Below, one piece after another: positions 39,867 to 47,787 of a stretch of 64,000 nucleotides of DNA. Under the pieces are notes generated by a model. The model did no database searches and had not been told where the DNA came from. It saw only the letters and a program-made list of their open reading frames with translations. Position 1 is the first letter of the stretch. Each line of letters opens with the position of its first letter. The DNA lies in the NCBI RefSeq assembly GCF_900115265.1, contig NZ_FOVU01000003.1, positions 62,001 to 126,000 of the forward strand. The letters run 5' to 3'. Position numbers and translations under genes: made by a program. The DNA comes from Bradyrhizobium sp. Ghvi. GTDB lineage: Bacteria > Pseudomonadota > Alphaproteobacteria > Rhizobiales > Xanthobacteraceae.

Positions 39867-41615
39867 ATGGCGTTTGCATTATTTCGGAAGCGTCCGCCGG
39901 AAACGGCCGCGCCTGCGACGGCCCCACAGGCTGCGCAGCCGGCGGCCCATTCCGAGCCGGCCCCCGCCACCGAGGCTGATTCGGCGCGAGAGATCCTGGA
40001 ACTGCTGGAACTCGAGCTCGGCGCCATGATCCGTCAGCTCGAGCGGGCGGCCAATTCGGTGGCGGGCGGCGCGGAGGCAACGGCGGCCACGCTTGCGGAT
40101 ATCCGCCAGCGCACCGACGCGCTGACCGGGCGAACCAATGCCGCGCAGTCGAACGCCTCGGGCTTTGCCCATGCCGCCGACAAGTTCACCCAGTCCGCCC
40201 AAGGCATCGGCGCACAGGTCCGCGAGGCCGGAAAGCTCGCAGACCAGGCCAGCGCCGCCGCGCAGGAAGCCCGCGCCAACGTCGATCGCTTGCGGGAATC
40301 TTCGGCCGCCATCGGCAATGTCGTCAATCTGATTGCCCAGATTGCACGGCAGACCACGCTGCTCGCGCTCAACTCCACCATCGAGGCCGCGCGCGCGGGC
40401 GAAGCCGGCCGGGGCTTTGCGGTCGTTGCGACCGAGGTCAAGGCGCTCGCGGTGCAGACGCAAAGCGCGACCGAGGAGATCACCAAGAAGATCGACGCGC
40501 TCCAGCGCGACGCCGCCGGCTCGGCCGACGCGGTGCATCGGATCTCGCAGGCCATCGAGGCGATCCGCCCGGTGTTCGAGACCGTCAACGGCGCGGTCGC
40601 CGAGCAGAACGCCACCACCAGCGAGGTCTCCGACAACGCGACCAGCGCCTCGCAATTCATCAGCTCGGTCGGCGAGAGCGCGGCCGAGATCGATGCCGCG
40701 ACCAAGGCCGCCGAGACCCATGGCGAGAACGTCGCCAGCGCCGGCAAGGCCGTGACGACCTTTGCGCAGAAGCTGAAATCGCGCTGCGCGGTGCTGCTCA
40801 AGAGAAGCGAGCACGATGACCGTCGCAAGACCGAGCGGCTGCCCTGCCATCTCAAATTCGAGAGCGCGCGCGGCGTGCTGCCGGTCTACGAGATCTCAAT
40901 GGACGGCGTCCTGATCGGCGGAGCGGAAGCAGGCCGGCTTGCATCTCAGGCCATCATCGAGGGCACTCTCGCGGACGTCGGCGCCTGCCGCCTGCGCGTG
41001 ATCGAGCAGTCCAAGGCCGGCGCCCGCGCGCAATTCGTCAGCCCCGATGCCGGCTTGCGCGAAAAGATCGAAGACAAGCTCTGGTCGATCCACGAGGAGA
41101 ACACGGAGTTCGTCACCCGCGCGATGGAAGCGGGCACCGCGCTGAGCCGGATATTCGAGCAGGCGGTCGCGCGCGGCGAGATCCGGATGGACGAGCTCTT
41201 CGACACGGATTACGTCGAGATCGCCGGCACCAATCCGCAGCAATACCGCACCAAATATCTCGATTGGGCCGACCGCGCGCTACCGCCGTTCCAGGAAGCC
41301 TTTCTCGCCAGGGAGCCGCGCATGGCGTTCTGCGCCATGGTCGACCGTAACGGCTTCCTGCCGGTCCACAACAAGATCTATTCGCATCCGCAGCGGCCGG
41401 GCGACGTCGCCTGGAATACGGCCAACAGCCGCAACCGCCGCATCTTCAACGATCCGGCGGGGTTGGCGGCCGCGCACAACTTGCGCTCGTACCTGGTCCA
41501 GAGCTATGCGCGCGACATGGGCAACGGCAACACGGTGATGATGCGCGAGATCGACGTCCCGATCCGCGTGCAGGGCCGGCACTGGGGCGGATTCAGGACG
41601 GCTTACAAACTGTAG
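39867..41615 (+). CDS. soluble chemoreceptor with inserted PilZ domain and C-terminal sensor-like domain
   Basis: A 582-residue protein with no membrane helix. Residues about 40-310 form an MCP signalling domain, with the tip [20 protein letters not shown]. Residues about 315-400 form a PilZ-like domain: RKTER (RxxxR) and [11 protein letters not shown] (ExSxxG, with Glu in place of the usual Asp/Asn), so c-di-GMP binding is likely but not certain. Residues about 410-582 form a domain shared with the next gene: [33 protein letters not shown] and [19 protein letters not shown]. The protein probably joins cytoplasmic chemotaxis signalling with c-di-GMP. ATG 39867 is preferred; an earlier in-frame ATG at 39789 adds 26 residues. 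Confidence 0.85.
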
Positions 41616-41722
41616 TGCACGCTCAGGCAAGACGCCGGGCGCGAATCATCCTGTAAGATCGATATTGGAATGGGAATGCCGCGGTCAGCCGATGAACGGC
41701 TCCGCCTGGAGAAACCCGTAAC

Positions 41723-43147
41723 ATGTCGCTCGCACAACTTGCAGTCCTGGACACCGGCTCCAACAGGACGCTCGCTGAACGGCTGATCGACCAGCTTGCC
41801 GACCGCATCGGCGGTCTCGGCGTTGAGCTGGCCGACGTCGCCGGCAACGTCCAGGAGGTCGCTAACCGGGTCGCCAACCAGTCCGAGCGATTCCACCACC
41901 TCCAGAAGACCGCCGAGACCATGGTCTCGGCCAACCACGACATCGCCAATGCATCCCAGGCGGTGCAGTCGACCACGTCGGCGGCCGTGGGCGAGATCGC
42001 GCAGTCGCGCAGCGCGGTCGATACCGCGGTCAGTCACATCTCCGAGCTGGTCGCGGCCGTGGAGCGGATCGAAGCGCGTCTCGGCGCGGTCGGCTCGGCG
42101 CTGGCGCAGGTCGCAAAAGTCTCCGGCTCGATCGAGGCGATCGCCAAGCAAACCAATCTGCTGGCGCTGAACGCAACGATCGAAGCCGCCCGTGCCGGCA
42201 ATGCCGGACGCGGCTTCGCCGTGGTCGCCAGCGAGGTGAAGAACCTCGCGGAGGCGACGCGCCAGGCCACGCACCAGATCTCCGATACCGTGCGCGATCT
42301 CGACGGCCAGATCGAAGGCCTGATCGGCGAGAGCAGCGATGCCTCGCAGCGCGCCAAGACCGCCGGCGAAGGCGCGCAAGCGATCTCCGGCATCATCTCG
42401 CGCGTCCAGCAGGGCTTTGCTTCCGTGGAAGCCGAGATCGACAGCGTCACGCGCGCGGCGAGCTCCAATCTCGGCCATTGCGATACCGTGATCAGCGAGC
42501 TCAACGAGCTCGCCAAGGGCGTCGACCTCTCCTCGCGCGATCTCAGGAGCGCCGACCAGCGCGTGACGAAACTGCTCGACACCTCCGAAGCCCTGATCGC
42601 GCTGATCGCCGACAGCGGCGTCGAGACGTCGGATGCGCCGCTGATCCGCGTCGTCGTCGATACCGCCAAGAGGATCTCGGCCGAGTTCGAAGCCGCGATC
42701 GATCGCGGCGAGATCACGCTCGACCAGCTCATGGACGAGAACTACCGGGAAATATCAGGCACCGATCCCAAGCAGTACACCACCGCCTATGTCGACTTCA
42801 CCGACCGCGTGCTGCCCGCCATCCAGGATCCGATCCAGAAGTCCGATCCCCGCATCGTGTTCTGCGTCGCCTGGGCCAGAGGCGGCTATTTGCCGACTCA
42901 CAATCCGAACTATCGCCTGCCGCAGGGCAAGGACCCGGTCTGGAACAACGCCAATTGCCGCAACCGCCGCCTCTTCACCGATCGCGCGGTGAAGAAGGTC
43001 GCGGCCAACACAAAACCCTTCCTGCTCCAGACCTATCGCCGCGACATGGGCGGCGGGCAGTTCGTGCTGATGAAGGATCTGTCGTCGCCGATCATGATCC
43101 GCGGCAAGCACTGGGGCGCGTTCCGGATGGGATTCCGGCAGGGCTGA
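41723..43147 (+). CDS. soluble chemoreceptor with C-terminal sensor-like domain
   Basis: A 474-residue cytoplasmic MCP without transmembrane segments. After a helical start, residues about 80-290 form the signalling domain (tip [20 protein letters not shown]). The C-terminal 175 residues ([64 protein letters not shown]) match the last domain of the neighbouring gene 107 bases upstream, so the pair arose by duplication or shares a module. The domain has conserved arginine, histidine and aromatic residues suitable for a small ligand. It lacks PilZ. No chemotaxis operon is nearby. Confidence 0.88.
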
Positions 43148-43295: not shown

Positions 43296-43473
43296 CTCCT
43301 CTTCCCTTCTTCCCTTGTGGGAGAAGGTGGCGCGAAGCGCCGGATGAGGGGTCTCCAGCGGCGGACAAAGCTGCTTCGGAATGAAAGAGGCTCATATGTG
43401 GAGACAGACCCCTCACCCGAGTGAGTCTGCGTCTACCGGCGTCGCTACCCTCTCCCACAGGGGGAGAGGGCAC
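43296..43473. repeat. large palindromic intergenic repeat (CTCTCCCAC/GTGGGAG family)
   Basis: The left part TTGTGGGAGAAGG, CGCGAAGCGCCGG and GATGAGGGGTCT is matched in inverse by AGACCCCTCACCC and CCCTCTCCCACAGGGGG on the right. The centre is not conserved. A related copy is at 49807-49964. Confidence 0.75.
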
Positions 43474-43682: not shown

Positions 43683-43811
43683 CGCTGAACGCGCAGATAT
43701 GCATTGCTACGAATTTGGAAGCTTCATCGTTTCGCATCGGTATGATTATGCTCGCGTGGAAAATTCGCCGACCCGATCGCCGCGAGCGATCAGGCGAAGA
43801 AGGAAATGCAT

Positions 43812-44276
43812 ATGGCAACGAAACTTACCATCAACGGCGAAACGAAATCGTTCGACGCGCCACCTGATATGCCGCTGCTGTGGGTGCTGCGCGACATCCT
43901 CGGCATGACCGGCACCAAGTTCGGCTGCGGCATCGCGCAATGCGGCGCCTGCACGGTGCATGTCGACGGCAAGGCGGTGCGCTCCTGCGTGCTGCCCGTG
44001 AGTGCGGTCGAGAACCGCGCCATCACCACCATCGAGCATATCGGCAGCACGCCGGCCGGCTCAAAGGTGCAGAAGGCCTGGCTCGAGGCCGAAGTAATCC
44101 AGTGCGGTTACTGCCAGTCCGGCCAGATCATGTCCGCCGCGGCGCTGCTGGCTTCGACACCCAAACCTGATGATGCCGACATCGATGCGGCGATGGCCGG
44201 CAACATCTGCCGCTGCGGCACCTATGTACGCATCCGCGAGGCCATCAAGCTCGCCGCCAACGGCCGCCAGTCGTGA
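43812..44276 (+). CDS. (2Fe-2S)-binding subunit of a molybdenum hydroxylase (isoquinoline 1-oxidoreductase alpha-like)
   Basis: A 154-residue protein with two 2Fe-2S clusters. Cys39, Cys44, Cys47 and Cys59 ([14 protein letters not shown]) form the plant-type site; Cys98, Cys101, Cys133 and Cys135 (CGYCQSGQ and CRCGTY) form the second. It carries electrons from the molybdenum subunit encoded 8 bases later. ATG 43812 lies 7 bases after AAGGA; the ATG 6 bases earlier is too close to it. The operon has no separate FAD subunit, the same as in IorAB, and a cytochrome c takes that place. Confidence 0.92.
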
Positions 44277-44284
44277 GATCCGCC

Positions 44285-46447
44285 ATGAATGCACACCACG
44301 ACGTCTCCCGCCGCGCGCTTCTGACCGGCGGCCTCGCCACCGGCTTCCTGCTCGCCTTCCATCTGCCGCTGCGCGCCGCCAACGAGCCGGAGCAGAAGGA
44401 CGTGACCGACGGCAAATTCGCGCCCAACGCCTTCATCCGCATCGACGAGACCGGCCGTACCGTGCTGATGATGCCGCAGGTGGAGATGGGCCAGGGCACC
44501 TATACCTCGATCTCGGCGGTGCTCGCCGAGGAGCTGGATGCCGACTGGAGCAAGGTCGAGGTGCAGCACGCGCCGCCGAACGACAAGCTCTACGGCAATC
44601 CGACCTTCGGCCTGCAAGTCACCGGCAACTCCAACTCGATCCGTGCCTGGTGGACGCCGCTGCGCAAGGCGGGCGCCACCGCCCGTGCGATGCTGGTGCA
44701 GGCGGCAAGCAGCCAGTGGGGCGTCGAGCCCTCGAGCTGCAAGGCGTCGAAGGGCGAGGTCGCGCATGAAGCGAGCGGCCGCAAGCTCGGCTATGGCGAA
44801 TTGGCGCATGCCGCGCAGGGCCAGACGCCGCCCAAGGACGTCGCGGTCAAGGACCCCAAGGATTTCGTCCTGATCGGCCAGCCGCTGAAGCGGCTCGACA
44901 CGCCCGACAAGGTCAACGGCAAGGCGCTCTACGGGATCGACGCGATCCTGCCCGACATGAAGATCGCAGCGATCGCCAATTGTCCTGTGTTCGGTGGCAA
45001 GGTCGGCAAGGTCGACGACAGCGCGGCGATGAGGGTCACCGGCGTGCGCAAGGTCGTCGTGCTCGACGACGCCGTTGCCGTGATCGGCGATCACATGTGG
45101 GCGGCGAAGAAGGGTCTCGAAGCGCTCAAGATCGCGTGGAACGAGGGCCCGAACGCTGCGATCACGACCAAAGACATCTGGCAGAACCTGCGCGAGGCCA
45201 GTGCGAAGGCTGGCGTGGTCGCGAAATCGACCGGCGACATCGCCAAGGCGCTCGCGTCCGGCGACAGGTTCGAGGCAGCTTACGAGCTGCCGTTCCTGGC
45301 GCACGCCTCGATGGAGCCTGTCAACGCCACCGTGCGGGTGACGAAGGATTCCTGCGAGATCTGGACCGGCACGCAGATCATGACGCGGGTACAGTCGGAG
45401 GCGGCGAAGGCCGCGGGCCTTCCGGTCGACAAGGTCATCGTCAACCAGCACCTGCTCGGCGGCGGTTTTGGTCGCAAGCTCGAGCCTGACATGGTCGTTG
45501 CGGCGGTCAGAATCGCAAAGCAGGTCGACTATCCCGTCAAGGTGATCTGGACCCGCGAGGAGGACATCCAGCACGACGTTTATCGTCCTGTCTATCGCGA
45601 CCAGATCACGGCCTCGCTGGCGGACGGCAAGGTCTCGGGCTGGAAGTACAAGGTCGCCGGCTCGGCCGTGCTGGCGCGCTGGTTGCCGCCGGCGTTCCAG
45701 AAGGGCATCGACATCGACGCGATCGATGCGGCAGTCGATGCGCCTTACGACTTCGCCAACTTCCACGTCGAATATGTCCGCGCCGAACCGCTGTCGGTGC
45801 CGACAGGCTTCTGGCGCGGCGTCGGCCCGAACAACAACGTGTTCGCGGTCGAATGCGCGATGGACGAGCTCGCGCGCAAGGCCGGCAAGGATCCGATCGA
45901 ATTCCGCCGGGCCATGCTGACGAAGAATCCGCGCATGCTCGCGGTGCTCAATCAGGTCGCGGAGAAATCCGGCTGGGGCGAGAAGCTGCCGCCACGCGTC
46001 GGCCGCGGCGTCTGCGTGCAGCCGTCATTCGCGAGCTTCATCGCGACCGTGGTGGAAGCCGAGATCGACGACATCGGCGAGATCGTGCTCCGCCGCGTCA
46101 CCTCCGTGGTGGACACTGGCATCGCTGTCAACCCCGACACGGTGAAGGCGCAGATCGAGGGTGGACTGATCTTCGGCCTCACCGCCGCACTCTATGGCGA
46201 GATCACCATCGACAAGGGCCGCGTGCAGCAGTCGAACTTCCACGACTACCGCATGATGCGCATTAACGAGACGCCGAAGATCGATGTGACCGTCGTCAAG
46301 AGCGGCGAAGCGCCCGGCGGCATCGGCGAGGCCGGCGTCAATGCCGGGCCACCAGCGCTACGCAACGCGATTCTTGCCGCGTCAGGCGTGGCGCTGCGGC
46401 GTCTGCCGATCGATCGGACACTGCTGGCTGTGGGGAAGAAGGCATGA
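44285..46447 (+). CDS. molybdopterin cytosine dinucleotide hydroxylase large subunit (IorB-like)
   Basis: A 720-residue xanthine-oxidase-family subunit with an isoquinoline-1-oxidoreductase beta layout. The N terminus SRRALLTGGLATGFLLAFH is a Tat signal, so the enzyme works in the periplasm with the cofactor bound before export. Motifs: MPQVEMGQGTYTSISAVLAE, HLLGGGFGRKLEPD (MoCo contact), and EAPGGIGEAGVNAGPPAL with the active-site Glu near the end. The substrate could be an aldehyde or an N-heterocycle. Start: ATG 44285 precedes the signal; a GTG at 44273 overlaps the small-subunit gene. The following gene, a triheme cytochrome, starts 4 bases before this gene ends and is its likely electron acceptor. 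Confidence 0.93.
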   Translation: MNAHHDVSRRALLTGGLATGFLLAFHLPLRAANEPEQKDVTDGKFAPNAFIRIDETGRTVLMMPQVEMGQGTYTSISAVLAEELDADWSKVEVQHAPPNDKLYGNPTFGLQVTGNSNSIRAWWTPLRKAGATARAMLVQAASSQWGVEPSSCKASKGEVAHEASGRKLGYGELAHAAQGQTPPKDVAVKDPKDFVLIGQPLKRLDTPDKVNGKALYGIDAILPDMKIAAIANCPVFGGKVGKVDDSAAMRVTGVRKVVVLDDAVAVIGDHMWAAKKGLEALKIAWNEGPNAAITTKDIWQNLREASAKAGVVAKSTGDIAKALASGDRFEAAYELPFLAHASMEPVNATVRVTKDSCEIWTGTQIMTRVQSEAAKAAGLPVDKVIVNQHLLGGGFGRKLEPDMVVAAVRIAKQVDYPVKVIWTREEDIQHDVYRPVYRDQITASLADGKVSGWKYKVAGSAVLARWLPPAFQKGIDIDAIDAAVDAPYDFANFHVEYVRAEPLSVPTGFWRGVGPNNNVFAVECAMDELARKAGKDPIEFRRAMLTKNPRMLAVLNQVAEKSGWGEKLPPRVGRGVCVQPSFASFIATVVEAEIDDIGEIVLRRVTSVVDTGIAVNPDTVKAQIEGGLIFGLTAALYGEITIDKGRVQQSNFHDYRMMRINETPKIDVTVVKSGEAPGGIGEAGVNAGPPALRNAILAASGVALRRLPIDRTLLAVGKKA

Positions 46448-47787
46448 GCCGGACAATGCGTATCCTTGCAAGGCTCGTTGTGATCGCCATCGTCGCGGTG
46501 GCGCTCGGTGTCTTCATCATCCGCGGACCGGGTCCGCTCGATTTTGCCGGCGGCACGAAGGTGGCGCTGGCGGACTATCGCGCCGGCAAGCCGACCGGCG
46601 TGCCGGCCAAGCTGGAGACGGCAAGCCTTGTCGAACGCGGCGAGTATCTGGCGAAGGCAGCCGACTGCATGGTGTGCCACACCAAGCCCGGTGAGAAAGA
46701 GTATGCCGGCGGGCTCGCCTTCAAGCTGCCGTTCGGCACGCTCTATTCGACCAACATCACGCCTGACAAGGACACCGGCATCGGCAATTACAGCGACCAG
46801 GACTTTTTGAACGCGGTTCAGCACGGCAAGCGCCGTGACGGCGCGCGGCTCTATCCCGCGATGCCGTACACGTCCTACCCCCTCATGACCGACGAGGATG
46901 TGCTGGCGGTCAAGGCCTATCTGTTCAGCCTGCCGGCGGTGCGCGTCAAGGCGCCCGAGAACACGCTATCGTTCCCGTTCAACCAGCGCTGGGCGATGAC
47001 GTTCTGGTCGGCTGTGTTCAATCCGGACACGCGCTTTGCGCCCGATACGTCGAAGAGCCCGGAGTGGAACAGAGGTGCGTATCTGGCGGAAGCGCTCGCC
47101 CATTGCGGCGAATGCCACACGCCGCGCAATCTCGGCTTCGCGCTGGATAACCGCAAGAAGTTCGCAGGCGCGATCACAGCAGGCTGGCACGCCTTCAACA
47201 TCTCCTCCGACAAGGCGACTGGCCTCGGCAATTGGAGCGATGCGGATCTGATCGCGTATCTGTCGCTCGGCCACGCGGCCGGCCACGGCTCGGCCTCGGG
47301 CCCGATGGGCGAAGCGGTCGACCACAGTTTCAGCCAGTTCGCGCCGGAGGACATCCGTTCCATCGTCGCGTATTTGCGCAGCGTGCCGGCACAGCCCTCA
47401 CCCGACCTGCCCGCCACCACGGCGCCGGTCGCGCCTGCCTCTCACAAGGAAGGCATCACGGCGGACGCGCGCGGCAAGAAAGTGTTCGCCAGCGCCTGCG
47501 CCAGCTGCCACGGCTGGAGCGGCGAAAGCCCGGTGTCACCGATGGCGACGCTCACCGGCACCTGGGCCGTCAACGACCCCGCCGCCACCAATGTCGCGCA
47601 GATCGTGATCTCAGGCACGAAGCGGCACACGCCCGATGGTGCGCTGTCGATGCCGGCGTTCGGCCATGCGTATAGCGACGACGAGATCGCGGCGGTGGCG
47701 AACTACGTCACGGCAAGGTTCGGTGCGAAGGGATCGAAGTTGACGGCGAAAGACGTAGCGGAGCTGCGGGAGCAGACGGCGGAGTAG
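46444..47787 (+). CDS. triheme c-type cytochrome, membrane-anchored, electron acceptor of the molybdenum enzyme
   Basis: A 447-residue cytochrome with one N-terminal membrane anchor (residues 6-27) and three CxxCH haem sites: CMVCH at Cys75, CGECH at Cys221 and CASCH at Cys352. This matches the triheme subunit of alcohol/aldehyde dehydrogenases (AdhB-like). Met residues for axial ligation are present, for example MPAFGHAYSDDE near the third haem. It sits on the periplasmic side and passes electrons to the respiratory chain. It overlaps the large subunit gene by 4 bases; with the small subunit the three genes form a membrane-bound periplasmic dehydrogenase. Confidence 0.93.
   Translation: MSRTMRILARLVVIAIVAVALGVFIIRGPGPLDFAGGTKVALADYRAGKPTGVPAKLETASLVERGEYLAKAADCMVCHTKPGEKEYAGGLAFKLPFGTLYSTNITPDKDTGIGNYSDQDFLNAVQHGKRRDGARLYPAMPYTSYPLMTDEDVLAVKAYLFSLPAVRVKAPENTLSFPFNQRWAMTFWSAVFNPDTRFAPDTSKSPEWNRGAYLAEALAHCGECHTPRNLGFALDNRKKFAGAITAGWHAFNISSDKATGLGNWSDADLIAYLSLGHAAGHGSASGPMGEAVDHSFSQFAPEDIRSIVAYLRSVPAQPSPDLPATTAPVAPASHKEGITADARGKKVFASACASCHGWSGESPVSPMATLTGTWAVNDPAATNVAQIVISGTKRHTPDGALSMPAFGHAYSDDEIAAVANYVTARFGAKGSKLTAKDVAELREQTAE

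Follow-up and report, generated by a model that had tools for sequence, protein, structure and literature searches.

Soluble chemoreceptors of Bradyrhizobium sp. Ghvi with an apparently undescribed C-terminal domain of predicted Cache fold, one of them a relative of the c-di-GMP-binding receptor Cbp1

Chemoreceptors carrying a PilZ domain are already known. In Azorhizobium caulinodans ORS571, Cbp1 (AZC_3349) was reported as a chemoreceptor that binds cyclic di-GMP (c-di-GMP) with a dissociation constant of 14.94 uM; binding was lost in the R320A mutant, R320A Cbp1 gave no complementation, and in the capillary competition towards succinate the deletion of cbp1 resulted in 23.5% versus 76.5% of cells (PMC6454048). 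The accessible text of that paper describes Cbp1 as a methyl-accepting chemotaxis protein (MCP) signalling domain plus PilZ only. Tlp1 and Aer of Azospirillum brasilense are likewise c-di-GMP-linked chemoreceptors with PilZ after the signalling domain (PMC6406031, in the part available). Here we analysed a stretch of 64,000 nucleotides from Bradyrhizobium sp. Ghvi (contig NZ_FOVU01000003.1, positions 62,001 to 126,000, forward strand; hereafter the window), in which two neighbouring genes, P1 and P2, encode soluble chemoreceptors whose C-terminal domains form a cytosolic family of predicted Cache fold that has apparently not been described (Table 1). P1 is a receptor of the known kind and belongs with Cbp1, while Tlp1 and Aer differ from it in being membrane-anchored and in being described with a C-terminal PilZ (PMC6406031).

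Both genes were found where the first-pass annotation, made from the letters of the window alone, had placed them, separated by a gap of 107 bases, and both products contain the MCP signalling family PF00015. The maximal 19-residue Kyte–Doolittle mean is 1.02 in P1 and 1.13 in P2, so neither protein shows a sign of a membrane helix, in agreement with the annotation. Its claims of a C-terminal domain common to both proteins and of a PilZ domain in the first only were also borne out. The C-terminal parts share 47% identity over 152 aligned residues (E-value = 7e-52, pairwise comparison), far beyond chance, and P1 carries between its signalling hairpin and this domain an insert with the motifs RKTER and EISMDG and a predicted barrel, whereas P2 has no such insert. 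Two motifs quoted for the common domain, CRNRR and GKHWG, occur literally in P2, but P1 has SRNRR and GRHWG instead.

The common domain has no name in the sequence databases searched. With the C-terminal pieces of the window as queries, Pfam returned zero families up to an E-value of 10 and NCBIfam no match, and the best hit of phmmer among PDB sequences had an E-value of only 0.79. When 55 members of the domain were scanned against Pfam up to an E-value of 1, four families were matched, none of them Cache and each in at most three members. The best of these, EutK_C (E-value = 0.0019), and yeast MCM7, which the 55-member profile hit among PDB sequences (E-value = 0.0016, about 66 residues), were both rejected as chance matches because the fold search places the domain elsewhere. 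An AlphaFold2 model of the P2 domain was built on the 55-row alignment (predicted local distance difference test, pLDDT, 93.2; predicted template-modelling score, pTM, 0.88). It consists of a long first helix and a PAS-like sheet, and its nearest structures are Cache/PDC sensors. VIA-align superposed it on the WalK ectodomain (Z 12.4, root-mean-square deviation, rmsd, 2.6, 123 residues) and on Tlp3 (Z 10.8), DctB (Z 10.2) and CitA (Z 9.8), and a model of P1 residues 300-582 (pLDDT 86.2, pTM 0.79) on WalK (Z 13.5, rmsd 2.2, 134 residues). Foldseek also ranked Cache sensors at the top for the P2 domain, with modest E-values (best 2.5e-3) and with PAS chains lower down the list. We conclude from these predicted models that the C-terminal domain of P1 and P2 has a Cache/PDC fold. 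The first-pass annotation had called the domain unusual and proposed a profile and structure search with it; absence of a Pfam or NCBIfam name and an odd position in the chain agree with that description, but the fold is a known one.

In alignments of 35 and 55 members, the residues H89, R109, R112, Y134, R136 and W160 (numbered within the P2 domain) show little or no variation. The invariant H89, together with a nearly conserved C77, could also be read as a sign that the tail carries a redox or gas cofactor such as heme or flavin, which would make these proteins energy-taxis receptors, and the Azospirillum PilZ chemoreceptors do act in aerotaxis according to the part of PMC6406031 available. 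We regard this as improbable: CxxCH is absent from the Cache part of 261 unique open reading frames (ORFs) of the family, and intracellular PAS domains are absent from the 50 rows that VIA-align listed for the P2-domain model, although an absence there excludes neither a PAS relationship nor a cofactor.

The fold is shared with WalK, Tlp3, DctB and CitA (Z from about 10 to 13.5), but the Cache parts of those proteins are extracytoplasmic, whereas the tail of P1 and P2 is cytosolic, stands last in the chain and has no Pfam Cache match. Cache families are principally extracellular except Diacid_rec and YkuI_C, according to the accessible part of PMC4822843, and the position of the P1 and P2 domain after the MCP hairpin, on the cytosolic side, is unlike this principally extracytoplasmic placing. 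Like the tail, Diacid_rec and YkuI_C are principally intracellular Cache families (PMC4822843, same part); YkuI is drawn there as EAL followed by YkuI_C, and one table row, whose column heads lay outside the part seen, seems to list 30 Diacid_rec sequences on MCPs. A cytosolic Cache domain on a chemoreceptor may therefore have a precedent in Diacid_rec. Neither family gave a Pfam match to the window domains (up to an E-value of 10) or to the 55 members, but the Pfam models may be too narrow. In the open literature, which leaves most subscription papers outside its scope and was available in part, we found no account of a chemoreceptor that ends in a cytosolic Cache domain. Apparently undescribed are thus the tail of Cache fold as such, the fact that it stands at a cytosolic C terminus, how widely it occurs, and that Cbp1 has it.

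To place Cbp1 beside P1, cbp1 was located by a pattern from a published mutagenesis primer, which matched one of 391 genomes of the family. Of the ten cbp1 primers in print, eight were tried against the sequence, and each of them anneals at this one locus (L270). The protein encoded there starts with MFGLW, and its motif arginine is residue 320, as in PMC6454048. Because primers, start and Arg320 agree, the genome is taken to be that of A. caulinodans ORS571, an identification made from sequence. Cbp1 and P1 have the same soluble MCP-PilZ-Cache layout, with 581 and 582 residues, PilZ at the same place and Arg320 under the same number; the PilZ motifs are canonical in Cbp1 (RKFDR, DLSMGG) but read RKTER and EISMDG in P1. 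That Cbp1 ends at its PilZ domain, as the published expression primer could suggest, was ruled out, since a complete Cache tail is encoded at the locus. In this genome, the reverse primer published for expression binds some 180 bases past the stop codon, so that as written it would leave the C-terminal His tag unfused.

Cbp1 aligns to P1 with 41% identity over 512 residues (341 bits) and to P2 with 34% over 437 residues (206 bits). By region, P1 and Cbp1 have 115/305 identical residues in the MCP part, 23/85 in PilZ and 89/170 in the Cache part, and therefore the tail left unnamed in Cbp1 is the best-conserved part between the two. A published and genetically tested receptor thus continues for about 170 residues more, in a predicted sensor fold to which its paper makes no reference: the terms 'Cache', 'sensor domain' and 'ligand binding domain' are absent from the main text of PMC6454048, supplements not included. 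With this tail and the existing mutants, what Cbp1 senses besides c-di-GMP becomes directly testable. P1 is flanked by the yebC/ruvCAB side and by P2, cbp1 by SDR-like and TctC-like ORFs (translations read by eye). Given such unlike neighbourhoods, the case for orthology has to be made from protein sequence, between relatives with the same layout, and on that basis P1 and Cbp1 are probably orthologs. In Cache-domain trees, which were quick ones without bootstrap (rows filtered at 82% identity, rows with X or shorter than 150 residues dropped), 21 of 22 PilZ-bearing rows stood on one side of a branch before Cbp1 was added, and 22 of 23, Cbp1 included, afterwards (Shimodaira–Hasegawa-like approximate likelihood ratio test, SH-aLRT, 95). 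The PilZ-labelled row outside this clade (L042) has the degenerate motifs EKLQR and DFTKQG and was kept in the counts.

The Cache-tail domain was found in 69/199 genomes from the order, 47/289 from the class and 88/398 from the phylum, in genome draws that overlap; 42 of the 88 positive genomes of the phylum draw lie outside the class. A ligand for the tail would, with this spread, explain many cytosolic receptors that are now without a known sensor. One candidate, as a lead only, is MtpA of Methylobacterium aquaticum 22A, a cytosolic MCP that takes part in formaldehyde taxis and in which no sensor has been recognised (PMC10613068, in the part available). Cache-tail receptors occur across Alpha-, Beta- and Gammaproteobacteria. 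Among the best 80 of 582 confirmed stretches, the nearest named relatives of the P2 domain were from Bradyrhizobium (up to 95% identity), and the other named hosts included Azospirillum, Magnetospirillum, Bosea, Burkholderia, Paraburkholderia, Caballeronia, Ralstonia and Plasticicumulans; Methylobacterium, Salinivibrio and Vibrio are further named hosts. Two Cache-tail receptor loci came from contigs of a viral collection (L172 1066-1551, L171 1288-1803), which may be host DNA.

In the genome of the window, a search with the P2 domain returned two copies only, P1 and P2. Receptors of the P1 type are present in 140 of 146 genomes from the genus (142 gave a match, but in two of these it was no better than that of a plain receptor), and the PilZ receptor adjoins the plain one in 20/20 Bradyrhizobium loci, which had been picked by the plain one. 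However, the tandem arrangement named by the first-pass annotation does not hold as a general unit, as in the genome taken to be ORS571 a single Cache-tail gene was found, namely cbp1.

The layout of these receptors is nearly constant. MCPsignal was present in 77/77 members scanned by Pfam (N-terminally trimmed), and the Cache profile ends at most three residues from the stop codon or protein end in 254 of the 261 unique ORFs (46 stretches cut at the profile match being excluded from this count). Between the hairpin tip and the Cache domain lie 161 or 162 residues in 105/111 ORFs without PilZ and 250-259 residues in 50/50 ORFs with PilZ, as measured on the 161 of 197 ORFs that have a strict tip motif. 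Among ORFs with a recognisable tip and a start away from the locus edge, 221/236 have at most 235 residues before the tip, which leaves no room for an N-terminal sensor. Pfam scans of nine long Cache-tail ORFs revealed protoglobin in three (L256, L257, L268), PAS in two (L263, L264), HAMP in one (L258) and MCP only, with or without PilZ, in three. From the constant layout combined with varied N-termini, the Cache tail, whether accompanied by PilZ or not, has the look of a portable unit. The three protoglobin-MCP-PilZ-Cache receptors (L256 175-2478, L257 188-2548, L268 147-2525; the first two from the genus of the window) could be three-input receptors, and two other Cache-tail ORFs (L151, L043), in which the hairpin is preceded by two stretches of strong hydrophobicity, are possibly membrane-bound forms.

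The same data bear on the possibility that the Cache-fold tail is a module for dimerisation, array packing or CheR/CheB docking, the real input being supplied by the N-terminal part or solely by c-di-GMP. Such a module would fit a tail that is nearly always the last element of the protein, that also occurs on receptors already having an N-terminal sensor, and for which no ligand is on record. Against it speak the 221/236 ORFs that leave no space for another sensor, and the invariant residues listed above suit a putative pocket; we consider this explanation unlikely. A CZB domain and a C-terminal CheR pentapeptide were considered as well, but no search aimed at either was made.

For the PilZ domain of P1, the first-pass annotation had expected a PilZ fold at residues 315-400, and a barrel is indeed predicted there. 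Pfam did not recognise PilZ in P1 residues 303-413 (zero families up to an E-value of 10), but 8/10 relatives tested matched PF07238. In the model of P1 residues 300-582, the barrel superposes on the PilZ domain of Alg44 with c-di-GMP (Z 13.3, rmsd 2.8, 94 residues), on MrkH (Z 12.2) and on YcgR (Z 11.3), and Foldseek matched PA0012 (prob 1.00, E-value = 5.7e-4). On one side of the barrel the MCP arm ends, and on the other a single long helix (model residues 96-136) leads into the Cache domain.

The c-di-GMP signature of this barrel is incomplete. RxxxR is present in P1, but [DN]xSxxG is not, since EISMDG starts with E; S344 and G347 are retained. Across 95 Bradyrhizobium-type P1 proteins (unique and non-random sequences, including that of the window, one from another genus of the family, L255, and 46 from chosen places), RxxxR occurs in 65 and is lost in 30, [DN]xSxxG occurs in none, with E at the first position in 95/95, and A replaces S in 36 of them. 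Of 28 members from outside Bradyrhizobium, L042 counted, 23 have both motifs. Furthermore, the Bradyrhizobium-type proteins have a mean identity to P1 of 0.69 in the PilZ domain and of 0.86 in the Cache domain; omega is 0.19 in PilZ and 0.10 in Cache, both well below 1, and is higher in PilZ in 37/40 non-independent comparisons to P1. As PilZ is also the part with the lowest conservation when P1 is compared with Cbp1, its higher rate does not by itself prove that function has been lost; the motif changes are the stronger sign. In Bradyrhizobium P1 proteins, the PilZ barrel is thus kept while its c-di-GMP signature is weakening.

This erosion makes c-di-GMP binding by P1 uncertain; the reading of c-di-GMP proposed in the first-pass annotation agrees with the retained RxxxR but not with the missing D/N or the loss of motifs in the genus. 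Binding by the P1 of the window seems possible but not assured, the chances being about evenly divided. At slightly below even chances, the PilZ domain in Bradyrhizobium has lost c-di-GMP binding and acts as a spacer or protein–protein adaptor, dual input then being confined to relatives like Cbp1. The motif counts inside and outside the genus and the failure of Pfam to detect PilZ in the window protein speak for such a loss; against it, P1 retains RxxxR, S344 and G347, the region is still under purifying selection by its omega, Pfam finds PilZ in L065 of the same genus despite a degenerate RxxxR, and the serine of the second motif was not critical in YcgR according to the discussion of PMC6454048, in the part available. 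A further PilZ-Cache receptor in the genus of the window (L256, L257 and L258, in genomes G862, G856 and G890) has a PilZ domain still recognised by Pfam, unlike that of P1.

We hold it fairly probable that P1 and P2 are cytosolic receptors whose C-terminal Cache sensor signals back into the hairpin, with P1 a relative of Cbp1 that has a possible c-di-GMP gate. What the computation shows is the architecture, the two folds (as predicted models), a spacing that hardly varies, a clade of PilZ-Cache receptors and the relationship of P1 to Cbp1. In the proposed scheme, the Cache sensor would be attached at the far, C-terminal end of the MCP signalling hairpin in both proteins. In the models the chain stops at the last strand of the Cache domain without an outgoing helix, hence the first Cache helix would be the only link to the kinase-control hairpin, and a signal would run backwards, from this helix through the C-terminal arm of the hairpin to CheA/CheW; the near-constant spacing from tip to Cache suggests rigid coupling. 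P2 would represent the plain form, with Cache input and no PilZ. In P1, the PilZ barrel would stand in-line in the sole link between Cache and hairpin, where c-di-GMP could act as a gate on the strength of the Cache signal passed to the kinase, although in Bradyrhizobium this gate may be weak or repurposed, the fold being kept with a weakened signature. The Cache domain may bind an intracellular small molecule, an organic acid being a guess. The simplest reading would then be a sensor of an internal metabolite whose coupling, in the PilZ branch, is set by c-di-GMP. The wider proposal, that a large and principally cytosolic Cache family drives chemoreceptors from the C-terminal end with the signal passing backwards through the first Cache helix, is put forward tentatively, at somewhat below even chances; if true, signalling via an N-terminal helix would widen the view of how the Cache fold transmits.

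Several findings weigh against this scheme. Foldseek gave zero matches of the P2-domain model in PDB at an E-value of 0.001 or below, the tail has no ligand on record, and the orientation of PilZ to Cache in P1 is a predicted one. The same is true of the protoglobin, PAS and HAMP receptors described above, in which the tail is not the sole sensor, of the unlike neighbourhoods of P1 and cbp1, and, for the c-di-GMP gate, of the loss of RxxxR in part of the Bradyrhizobium-type proteins, the lack of [DN]xSxxG in all of them and the faster evolution of PilZ.

Table 1. Positions in the window of the two receptor genes and their parts.
Feature	Residues	Position	Strand	Basis
P1, soluble MCP-PilZ-Cache chemoreceptor, Cbp1 relative	582 aa + stop	39867..41615	+	ORF, Pfam, predicted model
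P1 MCP signalling domain	119-276	40221..40694	+	Pfam PF00015, E-value 1.6e-27
P1 PilZ domain	about 318-402	40818..41072	+	predicted model compared with Alg44 PilZ; Pfam matches in relatives
P1 RKTER, RxxxR motif	320-324	40824..40838	+	sequence; Arg320 numbered as in Cbp1
P1 EISMDG, degenerate [DN]xSxxG	342-347	40890..40907	+	sequence comparison
P1 C-terminal domain of predicted Cache/PDC fold	413-582	41103..41612	+	alignment, predicted model
P2, soluble MCP-Cache chemoreceptor	474 aa + stop	41723..43147	+	ORF, Pfam
P2 MCP signalling domain	106-249	42038..42469	+	Pfam PF00015, E-value 7.9e-28
P2 C-terminal domain of predicted Cache/PDC fold	305-474	42635..43144	+	predicted model, Foldseek, VIA-align

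Two further observations were made in the window downstream of P2. A 31-base dispersed repeat with an inner inverted repeat (GGCGC...GCGCC) lies at 43321-43351; with at most two mismatches, 30 copies including this one were counted in the genome of the window, versus 0 for the reversed control. Additionally, consecutive ORFs at 43806-47787 resemble an iron-sulfur subunit, a molybdopterin-type large subunit and a multi-heme c-type cytochrome, and from their translations, read by eye, this row may be likened to aldehyde or isoquinoline oxidoreductases.

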